This document shows positions 6,482 through 46,280 of a stretch of 64,000 nucleotides of DNA, in pieces. Position 1 is the first letter of the stretch, and each line of letters starts with the position of its first letter. Below the pieces are notes generated by a model. It ran no database searches, was not told the origin of the DNA, and saw only the letters and a list, made by a program, of their open reading frames with translations. Position numbers and translations under genes: made by a program. Where the stretch lies: the NCBI RefSeq assembly GCF_003815715.1, contig NZ_CP033922.1:3086001-3150000 (forward strand), written 5' to 3'. Origin of the DNA: Chryseobacterium sp. G0162. Its GTDB lineage: Bacteria; Bacteroidota; Bacteroidia; Flavobacteriales; Weeksellaceae.

Positions 6482-6528
6482 CACTCGCAAAAAAGGAACA
6501 GCGATCTTTTGAATTCTTTTTTATATTT

Positions 6529-6602
6529 GCCTCCATAGCTCAGTTGGCCAGAGCACGTGATTTGTAATCTCGGGGTCGTGGGTTCGAATCCCTCTGGAGG
6601 CT
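6529..6602 (+). tRNA. tRNA-Thr (anticodon TGT), copy 1
   Basis: Acceptor GCCTCCA/TGGAGGC, anticodon loop TTTGTAA with TGT, and GGTTCGAATCC T-arm; CCA is not encoded. The sequence is identical to the copy at 6953. Confidence 0.96.
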
Positions 6603-6621
6603 CATAAAAATATAAATCTTT

Positions 6622-6702
6622 GGGGAGATTCCAGAGTGGCTAAATGGGACTGACTGTAACTCAGTTGCTTCGGCTTCGTAGGTTCGAATCCTGCTCTCCC
6701 CA
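6622..6702 (+). tRNA. tRNA-Tyr (anticodon GTA), copy 1
   Basis: Acceptor GGGGAGA/TCTCCCC, anticodon GTA in CTGACTGTAACTCAG, a long variable arm and GGTTCGAATCC T-arm. Identical to the copy at 7047. Confidence 0.96.
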
Positions 6703-6723
6703 CTTATATTTTTTAAAAAAAAG

Positions 6724-6755
6724 TTTGCAAGATTAAAAAATAATTCTTAGTTTTG
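6724..6755 (+). promoter_or_regulatory. Internal promoter before tRNA-Gly, copy 1
   Basis: TTTG at 6724-6727, 20-nt spacer, TAGTTTTG at 6748-6755. The element is repeated at 7151-7182. Confidence 0.7.
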
Positions 6756-6789
6756 CACAGCGTTTACCAATGGTTTTGTAAACAAAATC

Positions 6790-6862
6790 GCGGAAGTAGC
6801 TCAGTTGGTAGAGCGTCAGCCTTCCAAGCTGAATGTCGCGGGTTCGACCCCCGTCTTCCGCT
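6790..6862 (+). tRNA. tRNA-Gly (anticodon TCC), copy 1
   Basis: Acceptor GCGGAAG/CTTCCGC, loop CTTCCAA with TCC, and GGTTCGACCCC T-arm. Identical to the copy at 7217. Confidence 0.96.
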
Positions 6863-6952
6863 CAACAAAAATCAATATTTAAAGTTGATTTTTTTAACAC
6901 TGAAATGTGTAGAGTAGAGTTTCTCTATCGGTTTCAGACTAATTGTTAAATT

Positions 6953-7026
6953 GCCTCCATAGCTCAGTTGGCCAGAGCACGTGATTTGTAATCTCGGGGT
7001 CGTGGGTTCGAATCCCTCTGGAGGCT
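6953..7026 (+). tRNA. tRNA-Thr (anticodon TGT), copy 2
   Basis: Same 74-nt sequence as the copy at 6529, with anticodon TGT. Confidence 0.96.
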
Positions 7027-7046
7027 CAATTTAATATAAAATATCT

Positions 7047-7127
7047 GGGGAGATTCCAGAGTGGCTAAATGGGACTGACTGTAACTCAGTTGCTTCGGCT
7101 TCGTAGGTTCGAATCCTGCTCTCCCCA
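7047..7127 (+). tRNA. tRNA-Tyr (anticodon GTA), copy 2
   Basis: Same 81-nt class II tRNA as the copy at 6622, with anticodon GTA. Confidence 0.96.
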
Positions 7128-7150
7128 CTATATTTTATATTAGAAAAAAG

Positions 7151-7182
7151 TTTGCAGAATTAAAAATTAATTCTTAGTTTTG
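7151..7182 (+). promoter_or_regulatory. Internal promoter before tRNA-Gly, copy 2
   Basis: TTTG at 7151-7154, 20-nt spacer, TAGTTTTG at 7175-7182; conserved between the two duplicated units. Confidence 0.7.
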
Positions 7183-7216
7183 CAAAGCGTTTACCAATAA
7201 TTTTGGAAACAAAATT

Positions 7217-7289
7217 GCGGAAGTAGCTCAGTTGGTAGAGCGTCAGCCTTCCAAGCTGAATGTCGCGGGTTCGACCCCCGTCTTCCGCT
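7217..7289 (+). tRNA. tRNA-Gly (anticodon TCC), copy 2
   Basis: Same 73-nt sequence as the copy at 6790, with anticodon TCC. Confidence 0.96.
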
Positions 7290-7329
7290 CAATAAAATCA
7301 CGCTCCTTAGTGTGATTTTTTTAGTTAAT

Positions 7330-42174: not shown

Positions 42175-42300
42175 GTAAAATATTTATGTTATTAGCTTTT
42201 TTCGTGTTGTTTGTTTATTGATAATCGTAAAATTTTATTTTAATGATGGATTAATTGCCCTATTTTTTATATTTGTTATAAAATATTGACAGAAAAGGAT

Positions 42301-42948
42301 ATGAGCAATCAATTTATTATTCAAAAATTCGGTTTTTTGGGAAATGACTTTGTGGATGAGCTTCAGAGGCATGCTATTGTAACAGAAATAAAGTCTAAAA
42401 CCGAAATAGTAAGAGAGGGACAAAAAAATAAATATGTACCCTTTTTAGTAAAAGGGTCTATCAAAGTTTTTACACTCAATGACGGAAGGGAGCTGATCTA
42501 TTATTATATTAAAGAAAGTGATAGCTGTCTGATGACTTTCTCATCTATTTTTACAGACTACATAAGTAGGGTATACGCTGTAGCGGAAGAGGATTCTGAA
42601 GCATTATTAATTCCAGTTTCCATCATGCATAGTTGGCTGCTGAAATTTCCAGAGATTAACAAATTGTTTTATCATGAATATGACAGACGATTTTCCGAAG
42701 TCATGAATATGGTCAATGATGCCGTTTTTCACCGTCTGGATAAAAGAGTTCTTAATTATATCAAACAACAAATTTCCATTACGGGAAACAATCCTATAAA
42801 AATTACACACAGAGAGATTGCTAATAATCTTGGAACTTCCAGGGAAGTTGTAAGCAGGGTTTTGAAAAAAATTGAAAGTGATGGAGATATTTTACAAACA
42901 AGAGAAGGAATAAAAGTCGCTGTAAATGAAAATGTTAGATTGTTCTAA
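42301..42948 (+). CDS. CRP/FNR-family transcriptional regulator
   Basis: A 215-residue regulator with an N-terminal cyclic-nucleotide-binding-like beta-barrel (about 20-120), a long dimer helix and a C-terminal winged helix. I chose ATG 42301 (upstream GAAAAGGA) over TTG 42286. The recognition helix, THREIANNLGTSREVVSRVLKK, has the R-E-x3-R arrangement (SREVVSR) that in E. coli CRP (SRETVGR) reads GTGA. It lacks the N-terminal Cys cluster of Fe-S FNR. The effector is unknown. A TATATTTG -7 element is at 42268-42275. A redox operon follows with a GTGA-N6-TCAC site, so it probably controls that operon. Confidence 0.88.
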   Translation: MSNQFIIQKFGFLGNDFVDELQRHAIVTEIKSKTEIVREGQKNKYVPFLVKGSIKVFTLNDGRELIYYYIKESDSCLMTFSSIFTDYISRVYAVAEEDSEALLIPVSIMHSWLLKFPEINKLFYHEYDRRFSEVMNMVNDAVFHRLDKRVLNYIKQQISITGNNPIKITHREIANNLGTSREVVSRVLKKIESDGDILQTREGIKVAVNENVRLF

Positions 42949-43000
42949 TTTATATTGTTATAAATGTTTTTAGTTTTGATTGATAAAAACTATGCCCTTG

Positions 43001-43045
43001 GTGACTTTTATCACATATATTTGAATTGATAACACGATAGATTTG
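43001..43045 (+). promoter_or_regulatory. CRP-like operator and promoter of the redox operon
   Basis: GTGACTTTTATCAC at 43001-43014 is a perfect GTGA-N6-TCAC palindrome. Two -7 candidates follow: TATATTTG at 43016-43023 and TAGATTTG at 43038-43045. With the second one, and a start about 4 nt after its G, the palindrome centres near -41, the usual place for a CRP-type activator. With the first one the site would sit over the promoter and suggest repression. Confidence 0.6.
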
Positions 43046-43074
43046 TTATATCATAATTTAATACAAATTGTAGT

Positions 43075-43917
43075 ATGACAAAAGCTCTCTTATTTTTGTC
43101 GATGCTTTCATCAGTCTTTGCTTTTGCACAGGAAGATCTGCTAAAAGATATCGATACTATCAAAACCAATACGGATACCTCACAACCTGCTTTTAAAGCC
43201 TTGCAGATTGTGACCGGGCAATCTACTAAACTTGCTGCCAAAAAAGAATGGTATATGGTGGTGGCACACCGGTTCGGGGATGTAAGTGCCGGATTTAAAG
43301 ATTTTTTCGGGCTGGATAATGCCTCTACTAAATTGGGCGTTATTTATGGGCTTACAGATGGCATCTCCTTAAGCTTGTCCCGTGAAACCAATATGAAAAC
43401 CTTTGAAGGAGCCATAAAGTATAGATTGGTAAGACAAAATGAGAACTTTCCGGTAGATATTGTAGGCTACCACGTAATGGGCGCCAATACAGCCCTTGAT
43501 AAAGACACTTATCCATATCTTCGATTTAGTGATAGATTGTCTTACCTTACACAAGCTTTGATTTCCAGAGGGTTTAGTGATAAACTTTCATTACAATTTA
43601 CACCTTCATATGTACATAAAAATCTTTATGAGCCAACTATTGAAGATAAAAACCAATTTTTAGCAGGTTTGGGTGGACGTTATAAAATTTCAAAAAGAGT
43701 TTCTGTAAATGCAGAATATTTTGTGAATTTCGACAATCACAGTTTCTATAAGAATCCACTGTCTTTAGGGCTGGATATAGAAACCGGGGGACATATTTTC
43801 CAGCTTTTATTTACAAATTCCCAGATCAATTCAGATATCGGATATCTTACCAATGCATCCGGAAATTGGGGAAAAGGACACATTTTCTTTGGGTTTAACC
43901 TTTATAGAGTTTTTTAA
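43075..43917 (+). CDS. DUF5777-type outer membrane beta-barrel protein
   Basis: A 280-residue protein with a signal peptide (about 1-19, ending FAFAQ) and alternating-residue strands through to a C-terminal aromatic (LYRVF), typical of outer-membrane barrels. Segments such as VVAHRFGDVS, FGLDNASTKLGVIYGLTDGISLSLSR and FFGFNLYRVF match the DUF5777 family as I know it. This family often sits next to haem c lipoproteins and YceI proteins in Bacteroidota, as here. The function is unknown. Its stop is one base before the next ATG. Confidence 0.75.
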   Translation: MTKALLFLSMLSSVFAFAQEDLLKDIDTIKTNTDTSQPAFKALQIVTGQSTKLAAKKEWYMVVAHRFGDVSAGFKDFFGLDNASTKLGVIYGLTDGISLSLSRETNMKTFEGAIKYRLVRQNENFPVDIVGYHVMGANTALDKDTYPYLRFSDRLSYLTQALISRGFSDKLSLQFTPSYVHKNLYEPTIEDKNQFLAGLGGRYKISKRVSVNAEYFVNFDNHSFYKNPLSLGLDIETGGHIFQLLFTNSQINSDIGYLTNASGNWGKGHIFFGFNLYRVF

Positions 43918-44263
43918 TATGAAAAAAGTAATATACCTGCTCGCTCTATCATTTGCAGCAATCACTATTGCCTGTGAAAGCAGAACCTATGAAGAAATTT
44001 CAGAAAATACCCCCATCATATTGCCAGTGAAATATACAACAGATATAAAGCCGATTATGGATAACAACTGCATTTCTTTGGGTTTAACCTTTATAGAGCT
44101 TTTTAATATGAAAAAAGTAATATACCTGCTCGCTCTATCATTTGCAGCAATCACTATTGCCTGTGAAAGCAGAACCTATGAAGAAATTTCAGAAAATACC
44201 CCCATCATATTGCCAGTGAAATATACAACAGATATAAAGCCGATTATGGATAACAACTGCATT
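43884..44263 (+). repeat. 189-bp in-frame tandem duplication in the haem lipoprotein gene
   Basis: Copy 1 (43884-44072) and copy 2 (44073-44261) have a period of exactly 189 bp (63 codons) and differ by one base that I can find (T43910 / C44099). A 2-bp TT is shared at the junction. The unit contains the end of the DUF5777 gene, the start codon, the lipoprotein signal and the first 33 or so mature residues of the next gene. Confidence 0.95.
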
Positions 44264-44455
44264 GGCTGTCATTCTGCAGGAAGTTTTAAACCTTTAGTCA
44301 CTTATGACCAGGTGAAAAATAATATAGACGGGATTTTAGACCGCATTCAAAGGGCAAATGGTGATCCACTGAAAATGCCTAAAGGAGGTTCACTATCTGC
44401 AACTCAAATTAATATGTTCATCAAATGGAAATCTGATGGGTTAACTGAAAACTAA
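43919..44455 (+). CDS. Haem c-type lipoprotein with duplicated N-terminus
   Basis: From ATG 43919 the frame runs for 178 residues and contains two copies of MKKVIYLLALSFAAITIAC, joined by SLGLTFIELFN. From the second ATG at 44108 the product is a normal-looking 115-residue lipoprotein: acylated C19, a haem-binding CIGCH at 51-55 and a likely distal Met in LKMPKGG (M90). Copy 1 stops matching before the CxxCH, so only one haem site exists. Which start is used is not decided by sequence; both have the same local context. The protein is probably a small electron carrier attached to the envelope. Confidence 0.75.
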   Translation: MKKVIYLLALSFAAITIACESRTYEEISENTPIILPVKYTTDIKPIMDNNCISLGLTFIELFNMKKVIYLLALSFAAITIACESRTYEEISENTPIILPVKYTTDIKPIMDNNCIGCHSAGSFKPLVTYDQVKNNIDGILDRIQRANGDPLKMPKGGSLSATQINMFIKWKSDGLTEN

Positions 44456-44466
44456 AAAGATTTGAT

Positions 44467-45009
44467 ATGAAAAAATTAACACTATTAAGCGTATTTCTAT
44501 TATTTGCAGGTTATATTTCTGCCCAGAAATACAGTTCCAAAACCGGTAAACTAACATTTGAAGCATCAGTACCCCTTTTTGATGATATCTATGCCCAGGA
44601 TGACAATAATCTGGTTATTCTTAATGCCGATACCGGGGAAATGGCATCTGTTTCTGTTGTTAAAAACTTTCATTTTAAAACCAAATTAATGGAAGAACAT
44701 TTCAATGAAAGTTATGCTGAATCTGCCAAATATCCTAAAACAACATTTAAAGGAAAAATTGTAGGCTTTGACAAGTCAAAGTTAACAACCAGCCCACAGA
44801 AATATACCGTTCAGGGAACCTTAAATTTCCATGGAGTAGATAAAGCGATAACCTCTGCCGCTTCAATGTATACAAAGGATGGTAAAATTTACATGCAAGG
44901 AAGCTTTGTGGCAAAACCAGCAGATTATAAAGTAACCATACCTAAGATGGTTACTAAAAAAATTGCTGAAAATGTAAATGTTGAATATACCTATACACTG
45001 ATAAAATGA
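44467..45009 (+). CDS. YceI-family periplasmic protein
   Basis: A 180-residue protein with a signal peptide (about 1-19, ending YISAQ) and a YceI-type lipocalin fold that binds isoprenoids or similar lipids in known members. Typical segments are NFHFKTKLMEEHFNESYAE, YPKTTFKGKIVGF and TVQGTLNFHGVDK. YceI proteins are often near cytochromes. Its stop overlaps the next start (ATGA at 45006). Confidence 0.88.
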   Translation: MKKLTLLSVFLLFAGYISAQKYSSKTGKLTFEASVPLFDDIYAQDDNNLVILNADTGEMASVSVVKNFHFKTKLMEEHFNESYAESAKYPKTTFKGKIVGFDKSKLTTSPQKYTVQGTLNFHGVDKAITSAASMYTKDGKIYMQGSFVAKPADYKVTIPKMVTKKIAENVNVEYTYTLIK

Positions 45010-45530
45010 GAAGCCTGATTATAACAATAAGTCTATTTCTGGGATCTTTATTGTTGGCCCAGGAAAAAGCAAAATCAATATTTGATATTGCCAGAAGCGG
45101 AACCGTAGCGGAAGTAAAAGACCTAATGAAACAGAATCCTGATATCATCAATCAAACCAATGAAAATGGTTTTTCCCCTCTTATTCTGGCTTGCTACAGA
45201 GGAAATGTAGAAGTGGCTGAATTTTTAATACACCATGTAAAGGATGTAAACTATAAAAGCAAAGAAGGAACAGCCCTGGCAGGTCTTTCTGTAAAATACA
45301 ACAGAAAGCTGGCTGAAGATTTACTGAAGAAAAATGCAGATCCTAATATTGCTGATGATACGGGGTCTACACCATTATTTTGGGCTGTAAAATTCGGAAA
45401 TAAAGAACTCATTGAACTCTTGCTTCAATATAAAGCCGATAAATCAATAAAAGATTCAATGGGAATGACCCCTTTTGAATATGCTTTACAAACGCATAAA
45501 GAAGAAATTATTAACATCTTAAAAAAATGA
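45006..45530 (+). CDS. Exported ankyrin-repeat protein
   Basis: A 174-residue protein with a signal peptide (about 1-19, ending LLLAQ) and about four ankyrin repeats: NENGFSPLILACYRGNVEVAEFLI, GTALAGLSVKYNRKLAEDLLKK, DTGSTPLFWAVKFGNKELIELLL and DSMGMTPFEYALQTHKEEI (each quoted in part of the repeat). Periplasmic ankyrin proteins occur near peroxidase and catalase genes in other bacteria. Here it is embedded in a haem/YceI operon. Confidence 0.85.
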   Translation: MRSLIITISLFLGSLLLAQEKAKSIFDIARSGTVAEVKDLMKQNPDIINQTNENGFSPLILACYRGNVEVAEFLIHHVKDVNYKSKEGTALAGLSVKYNRKLAEDLLKKNADPNIADDTGSTPLFWAVKFGNKELIELLLQYKADKSIKDSMGMTPFEYALQTHKEEIINILKK

Positions 45531-45533
45531 CGC

Positions 45534-46280
45534 ATGAAAAAAACTTTACTTACACTAGGATTGCTCATCGCGAATTTTACATGGGCGCAGTTTTCGTCAG
45601 GAACGGTAACCCTTCCGGTTACGGGTATGACGGTAAAATTAGATACAACCCCCACGGGGGTAACTCTTACGTTAACCGGGGATAGTAATTCCATGCTTGG
45701 AATCGGGTTTGGAACTGTAGGAATGGCCTCAGGGTCAGATGGATTTATCTATAATGCTTCTGCTAACAGGGATTATACATTTATAGGGAAGACAACACCA
45801 AATGCAGATCCTAGTCAGGATTGGACGGAAACCTCTAATACGGTATCCGGAAGTACAAGAACTATTGTGGCAACAAGAAGTCTTTCCGGAGGAGCCGGTG
45901 ATTTTGCCATTGCGAATGCGGCAGGAACAATCAATATCTTTTATGCACGTAAAACCGGTAATACTTTAGGATATCATGATGTAGGAAGAGACTATGCCAC
46001 TTTAACAATGGCTTCCAGCACTTTATCAACAAATGAAATTGCTGCTGCTGAAAAAAATAAAGTTTCCCTTTATCCTAATCCGGCAAAGACAACTGTGAAT
46101 TTCAAAAATGTTGACAAGATAAGCTCTCTTGAGATTTATGATGCAACAGGGAGAAAAATGAAATCTGTAAAACCGGATGGAGAAAATATAAGTGTTGAAG
46201 ATCTTAAACCGGGAATTTATTATTTTGAAATCAAACTGAAAGAGGGAACCCTGTCCTACGAAAAGTTAATCAAAGAATAA
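45534..46280 (+). CDS. DOMON-like secreted protein with T9SS sorting domain
   Basis: A 248-residue protein with a signal peptide (about 1-19, ending TWAQF). The middle (about 25-165) has MLGIGFGTVGMASGSDGFIYN, then a strand-rich region ending TINIFYARKTG and YHDVGRD, which resembles DOMON domains that bind haem or sugars. The assignment is by pattern only. The C-terminus is a type A sorting domain (SLYPNPAKTTVNF, LEIYDATGRKMKS, GIYYFEIKLKEG). It is the last gene of the redox operon and starts 3 nt after the ankyrin gene. Confidence 0.75.
   Translation: MKKTLLTLGLLIANFTWAQFSSGTVTLPVTGMTVKLDTTPTGVTLTLTGDSNSMLGIGFGTVGMASGSDGFIYNASANRDYTFIGKTTPNADPSQDWTETSNTVSGSTRTIVATRSLSGGAGDFAIANAAGTINIFYARKTGNTLGYHDVGRDYATLTMASSTLSTNEIAAAEKNKVSLYPNPAKTTVNFKNVDKISSLEIYDATGRKMKSVKPDGENISVEDLKPGIYYFEIKLKEGTLSYEKLIKE

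Follow-up and report, generated by a model that had tools for sequence, protein, structure and literature searches.

Phase-variable tandem repeats within genes are a known kind of locus, and the one described here resembles them in being a direct, in-frame repeat inside a gene, while differing from them in consisting of two copies of a long unit, found in one genome, with no variation observed. Short tandem duplication is also a known kind of event. In bacteria, tandem duplications arise spontaneously at short direct repeats, as in Salmonella, where the confirmed junctions involve more than 10 bases (PMC3411829). The locus reported here has in common with those events a duplication restricted to one lineage, and it may resemble them in a short sequence shared by the breakpoints; in contrast, only 2 bases are shared, and it was found in an assembled genome, whereas the Salmonella cases were rare junctions in culture. 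It is probably an ordinary, short-lived copying accident.

The affected gene finds its closest described counterparts in the c-type cytochrome lipoproteins of Flavobacteriales (Cytochrome_CBB3 or PccH-like), with which it shares a lipobox cysteine, one CxxCH motif, a conserved downstream Met-Pro and, in its 115-residue form, 97 mature residues. Unlike them, the copy in the window, by which we mean the whole 64,000-nucleotide stretch of Chryseobacterium sp. G0162 DNA analyzed here, has an additional 63-residue N-terminal repeat, and its family matches fall below cut-off. A literature search for work on this locus returned no paper among the matches listed, and no paper naming DUF5777, the domain family of the gene immediately upstream, was found in the literature searched.

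Results

Base-by-base comparison revealed two head-to-tail copies of a 189-bp unit on the + strand, copy 1 at 43884-44072 and copy 2 at 44073-44261, which match at 188 of 189 positions, the sole difference being T at 43910 and C at 44099. Identity at an offset of 189 has its left limit at 43883 and ends on the right just past the TT at 44262-44263, a dinucleotide present at both breakpoints; this 2-base microhomology is an overlap of a length readily given by chance. Tandem Repeats Finder likewise reported an array at 43884-44263 with a period of 189, 2.0 copies, 99% match and no indels, such that the location, period, single mismatch and TT junction first described in a sequence-only reading are borne out. 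A repeat-family search returned a family of equal period and location at 95% match, the lower figure arising because its reference copy is displaced 19 bases leftward. A repeat of 189 bases at 99% would be far beyond chance.

The left end of the unit lies inside the DUF5777 gene (43075-43917, + strand), and the last 34 bases of that gene, with its stop codon, were duplicated too. In order, the unit comprises this DUF5777 tail with its stop, a 1-base gap, the ATG, the lipobox-bearing signal and the coding sequence as far as the first Cys of CxxCH, past which copy 2 runs on into the remainder of the cytochrome gene. The start codon, the lipobox and the first mature residues are thus duplicated, as the sequence-only reading had it, but the unit is wider than that reading proposed, extending back into the preceding gene.

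We call the gene product, on the basis of its sequence, a putative small cytochrome-c-like lipoprotein. In an alignment of 40 sequences (the window's protein, 35 chosen among the 120 listed protein matches and 4 chosen among 48 named loci), Cys19 of the lipobox, which follows a hydrophobic signal, is invariant, as are Cys51, Cys54 and His55 of CxxCH and Met90, the last of which may serve as the sixth haem ligand. The Pfam and NCBIfam cytochrome-family matches all lie under their curated cut-offs (PF13442, 20.1 bits versus 27), and none of three rose above in a further search. A profile search of solved protein structures returned 20 sequences with E values no higher than 1, headed by the one-haem cytochrome c 4rlr (1.2e-4), the remainder being mostly cytochromes c6 or other haem proteins at E 0.018 or worse, with one unrelated protein at 0.71.

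Upstream of the cytochrome gene lie a CRP/FNR-type regulator gene (42286-42948) and the intact DUF5777 beta-barrel gene (PF19089, E 3.6e-85), whose stop stands 1 base before the ATG at 43919. Downstream follow a YceI-like gene (44467-45009), an ankyrin-repeat gene (45006-45530) and a gene for a DOMON-like protein that carries a type 9 secretion tail domain (45534-46280; DOMON below its Pfam cut-off, Por_Secre_tail above), all on the + strand and assigned by domain search. Matches to these neighbors occur in 41 (regulator), 46 (DUF5777), 46 (YceI), 41 (ankyrin) and 43 (DOMON-like) of the 48 named loci. The five genes occur together, and in the order seen here, throughout the 41 loci L032-L072, whose titles name Chryseobacterium or Epilithonimonas and, in one case, a Weeksellaceae bin; the 7 loci at greater distance have only part of the block or a rearranged form of it. 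The locus is thus an ordinary, conserved operon-like block in Chryseobacterium and Epilithonimonas.

Among 173 genomes of the genus, one per species, the cytochrome gene occurs in 163 including this one (162 of the 172 others), ten giving no match, and a partial second copy is present in none of the 162 others that carry it. Comparison with related genomes had been proposed as the means of exposing an old duplication present in all relatives, and this result rules such a shared duplication out. Nor can the six genomes with two matches (G066, G125, G163, G171, G182 and G192) be taken as parallel cases, as both matches are full-length in each (residues 1-114 or 1-115); in five of the six the two matches are separated by more than 1.7 Mb or sit on separate contigs. 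The sixth, G125, has its two full-length copies at an interval of about 3.5 kb (contig 51, 166631-170533), a pair that suggests a duplicated block of the operon.

At the level of individual loci, a tandem repeat of at least 60 bases at 90% or more is present in both of the window's own loci and in none of the 77 relative loci, some of whose genomes are counted twice (79 loci in all). A DNA search returned loci for 11 relatives, and in all 11 the duplication junction, at query 371-375, forms one end of the best match. A protein search gave 262 matches, and among the 120 listed the best reached 92% identity over the 115-residue part; 119 of them are at most 138 residues long, too short for a double signal, and the one remaining, at 199 residues (P0033), is instead a frame fusion of DUF5777 with the cytochrome. 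No second strain of the same species was found, 92% being the best among the protein matches listed; the window's own protein is absent from those matches, and the collections may lack entries for this genome or for those closest to it. As far as seen, the duplication would be confined to this genome among those examined.

The sequence upstream of the start was compared across 35 named loci (L032-L066), the counts for the gap, the T-run, the Val codon and the 189 positions excluding 13 more distant named loci (L067-L079); named loci were used because some whole-genome loci, such as L004 and L006, are minus-oriented. In an ungapped comparison, copy 1 differs at 18 of 189 positions from the nearest of these relatives, L033 (C. 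jejuense CC143) and L035 (C. pennae), versus a single position between the two copies, which marks the duplication as young, in line with the recent origin previously claimed for it. Barring gene conversion, the event appears to be much younger than the split from these species. The locus shows two features of a recent tandem duplication, namely adjacent, near-identical direct copies and absence from the other gene-bearing genomes of the genus searched.

The single difference between the copies also has a direction. Position 43910 is the second base of a DUF5777 Val codon, and all 35 named relatives have GTN there, so the T in copy 1 is ancestral and the C at 44099 derived. The change falls in the copy that no longer encodes DUF5777, a pattern in keeping with a true duplication and a later mutation. 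This bears on an assembly or base-calling fault, by which the true state would be one copy, or two with another junction, an explanation we consider unlikely yet deserving of serious weight. In its favor, the duplication is known from a single genome, and a one-base error at the junction, where three T stand, would alter the entire reading. In addition, in two records from elsewhere, P0021 and P0033, frame slips join the DUF5777 tail to the cytochrome gene within the same homopolymer-rich stretch, and these may reflect either true indels or errors of sequencing.

The junction T-run has four T in 34 of the 35 named relatives, versus three here; the 35th, L059, has substitutions at this place. 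The TT breakpoint explains the three T without a further event, though an erroneous base call at this site may also account for them. If the true run were of four T, the first copy would end at the copied stop and the second would start 1 base later, and fusion of the copies, or their separation at that stop, would thus appear to depend on the length of this run.

Against a fault stand the assembly itself, which is a single contig, 100% complete, of 5.28 Mb, and the non-identity of the copies, with the difference placed where coding constraint on DUF5777 has been lifted. Moreover, the window and a further 400 kb of stretches, together 464 kb of this genome, contain three other arrays with a period of at least 30, matched at 80-91%, and 400 kb of the relative G024 contain one, matched at 92%; since the other arrays are diverged, near-identical duplications are not general in the assembly. 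Two of the arrays in this genome lie in other stretches, L110:10916-12578 (period 364, 4.6 copies, 87%) and L102:2223-2477 (period 87, 2.9 copies, 80%). Within the window, a 427-bp repeat of a tRNA-Thr/Tyr/Gly trio at 6527-7323 (91% match) is old and ordinary, given that it has a nearly full-length match at 93-97% identity in 9 of 9 other genus genomes searched, and its presence in these nine relatives likewise speaks against misassembly. A genome rich in tandem duplications was also considered and rejected, no such richness being seen in the 464 kb sampled of 5.28 Mb.

The ATG at 43919 opens 178 codons and that at 44108 opens 115, with a common stop at 44455 and no stop between them. The longer frame (43919-44455, + strand) encodes two lipoprotein signals and one CxxCH, and the shorter (44108-44455, + strand) is collinear with the gene of the relatives, such that the duplication is in frame, as claimed, and the two products proposed for it are possible on paper. 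In the fused frame, lipobox cysteines occupy residues 19 (codon 43973-43975) and 82 (codon 44162-44164), and the two hydrophobic peaks are identical over 15 residues (4-18 and 67-81). The sole haem-binding motif, CIGCH, falls at residues 114-118 (44258-44272, + strand), being present only once because copy 1 is truncated past the first Cys of the motif. The description of a haem lipoprotein with two signal peptides therefore applies to the reading frame; the fused protein itself is a prediction.

The copied DUF5777 stop, TAA at 44104-44106 (+ strand), is out of frame with the fused reading frame and lies 1 base upstream of the ATG at 44108; the DUF5777 frame through copy 2 reads FFGFNLYRAF and then meets this stop. 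That the fusion is free of stops is unremarkable, as a third of random lengths preserve the frame and the 12 codons upstream of the start are already open in the cytochrome frame in 27 of the 35 named relatives. In the same relatives, the ATG follows the DUF5777 stop after 1 base in 27, 2 bases in 4 and 3 bases in 4.

Discussion

We hold it probable that the 189-bp tandem duplication at this locus is genuine, arose recently within the strain or species, is nearly neutral and has left an intact gene behind the second start. It would have originated by illegitimate recombination or replication slippage between sites sharing TT alone, spanning the DUF5777 tail and the following gene as far as its haem motif, within which the unit ends. 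The cost of such an event would be low, because a complete cytochrome gene survives past the second start and DUF5777 is untouched.

The short gap of 1-3 bases in all 35 relatives leads us to infer that ribosomes terminating DUF5777 restart 1 base further on at the ATG at 43919, which would be expected to be well used and to yield the fused 178-residue form. The ATG at 44108 retains the same 34-base leader, but not the terminating ribosome, and would give rise to the normal 115-residue lipoprotein. In the fused form, the second signal might be processed again at Cys82 or might serve as a membrane segment. The arrangement would be nearly neutral and prone to collapse to one copy, with little effect expected.

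An overlapping view, not exclusive of the above and in our estimate rather doubtful, is that a loss of function is in progress, whereby the internal signal would insert the fused protein with its haem domain on the wrong membrane face, the second start would hardly be used and the gene would be decaying. The hydrophobicity of the internal signal indeed equals that of the first, and nothing terminates right ahead of the ATG at 44108, since the copied stop is out of frame. The RNA near that ATG is also predicted to be slightly more folded than near the ATG at 43919 (-8.8 versus -6.6 kcal/mol over 70 bases; -15.0 versus -12.1 kcal/mol over 100 bases), but none of these four start-region folds is distinct from shuffles (z from -0.51 to 0.65), and the two starts are not clearly separated by them. 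Against decay stands the 115-codon frame itself, which is complete, free of stops and 90% identical to close relatives.

Alternatively, the locus could be adaptive or phase-variable, with gain or loss of a copy by recombination switching between the fused and the normal protein or changing its amount, a proposal we find improbable. A direct repeat of 189 bp could in principle recombine, and the reading frame is preserved, but the chance expectation for frame preservation and the pre-start codons already open in most relatives take much from the latter point. Furthermore, the repeat is absent at the corresponding place in the 162 other genomes, and the suggestion of phase variation is left unsupported by any copy-number variant in other species, each represented by one genome.

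Tuning of expression, which had been suggested as well, fares no better. The promoter-like motif TAnnTTTG has no match on the + strand inside the 189-bp unit, the four + strand matches in 42901-44300 all lying upstream at 42971-43091, which disfavors both a phase-variable role and a doubled promoter. This absence is weak evidence either way, because the 3.8-kb locus carries six matches against a shuffle mean of 5.95, that is, matches at chance level. Least credible of all is a one-nucleotide switch at the junction T-run, in which three T would give the fused double-signal lipoprotein and four T, through translational coupling, the normal cytochrome together with a short lipopeptide, with cells moving between these states by slippage or to one copy by recombination.

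A recent and nearly neutral duplication, the reading we prefer, would acquire wider importance only if the locus proves variable within the strain. If real, it would nonetheless offer a clear and datable view of a newly formed intragenic duplication, in which one event copied an export signal along with a start and a stop codon, and a natural test of how a second, internal lipoprotein signal affects a cytochrome.
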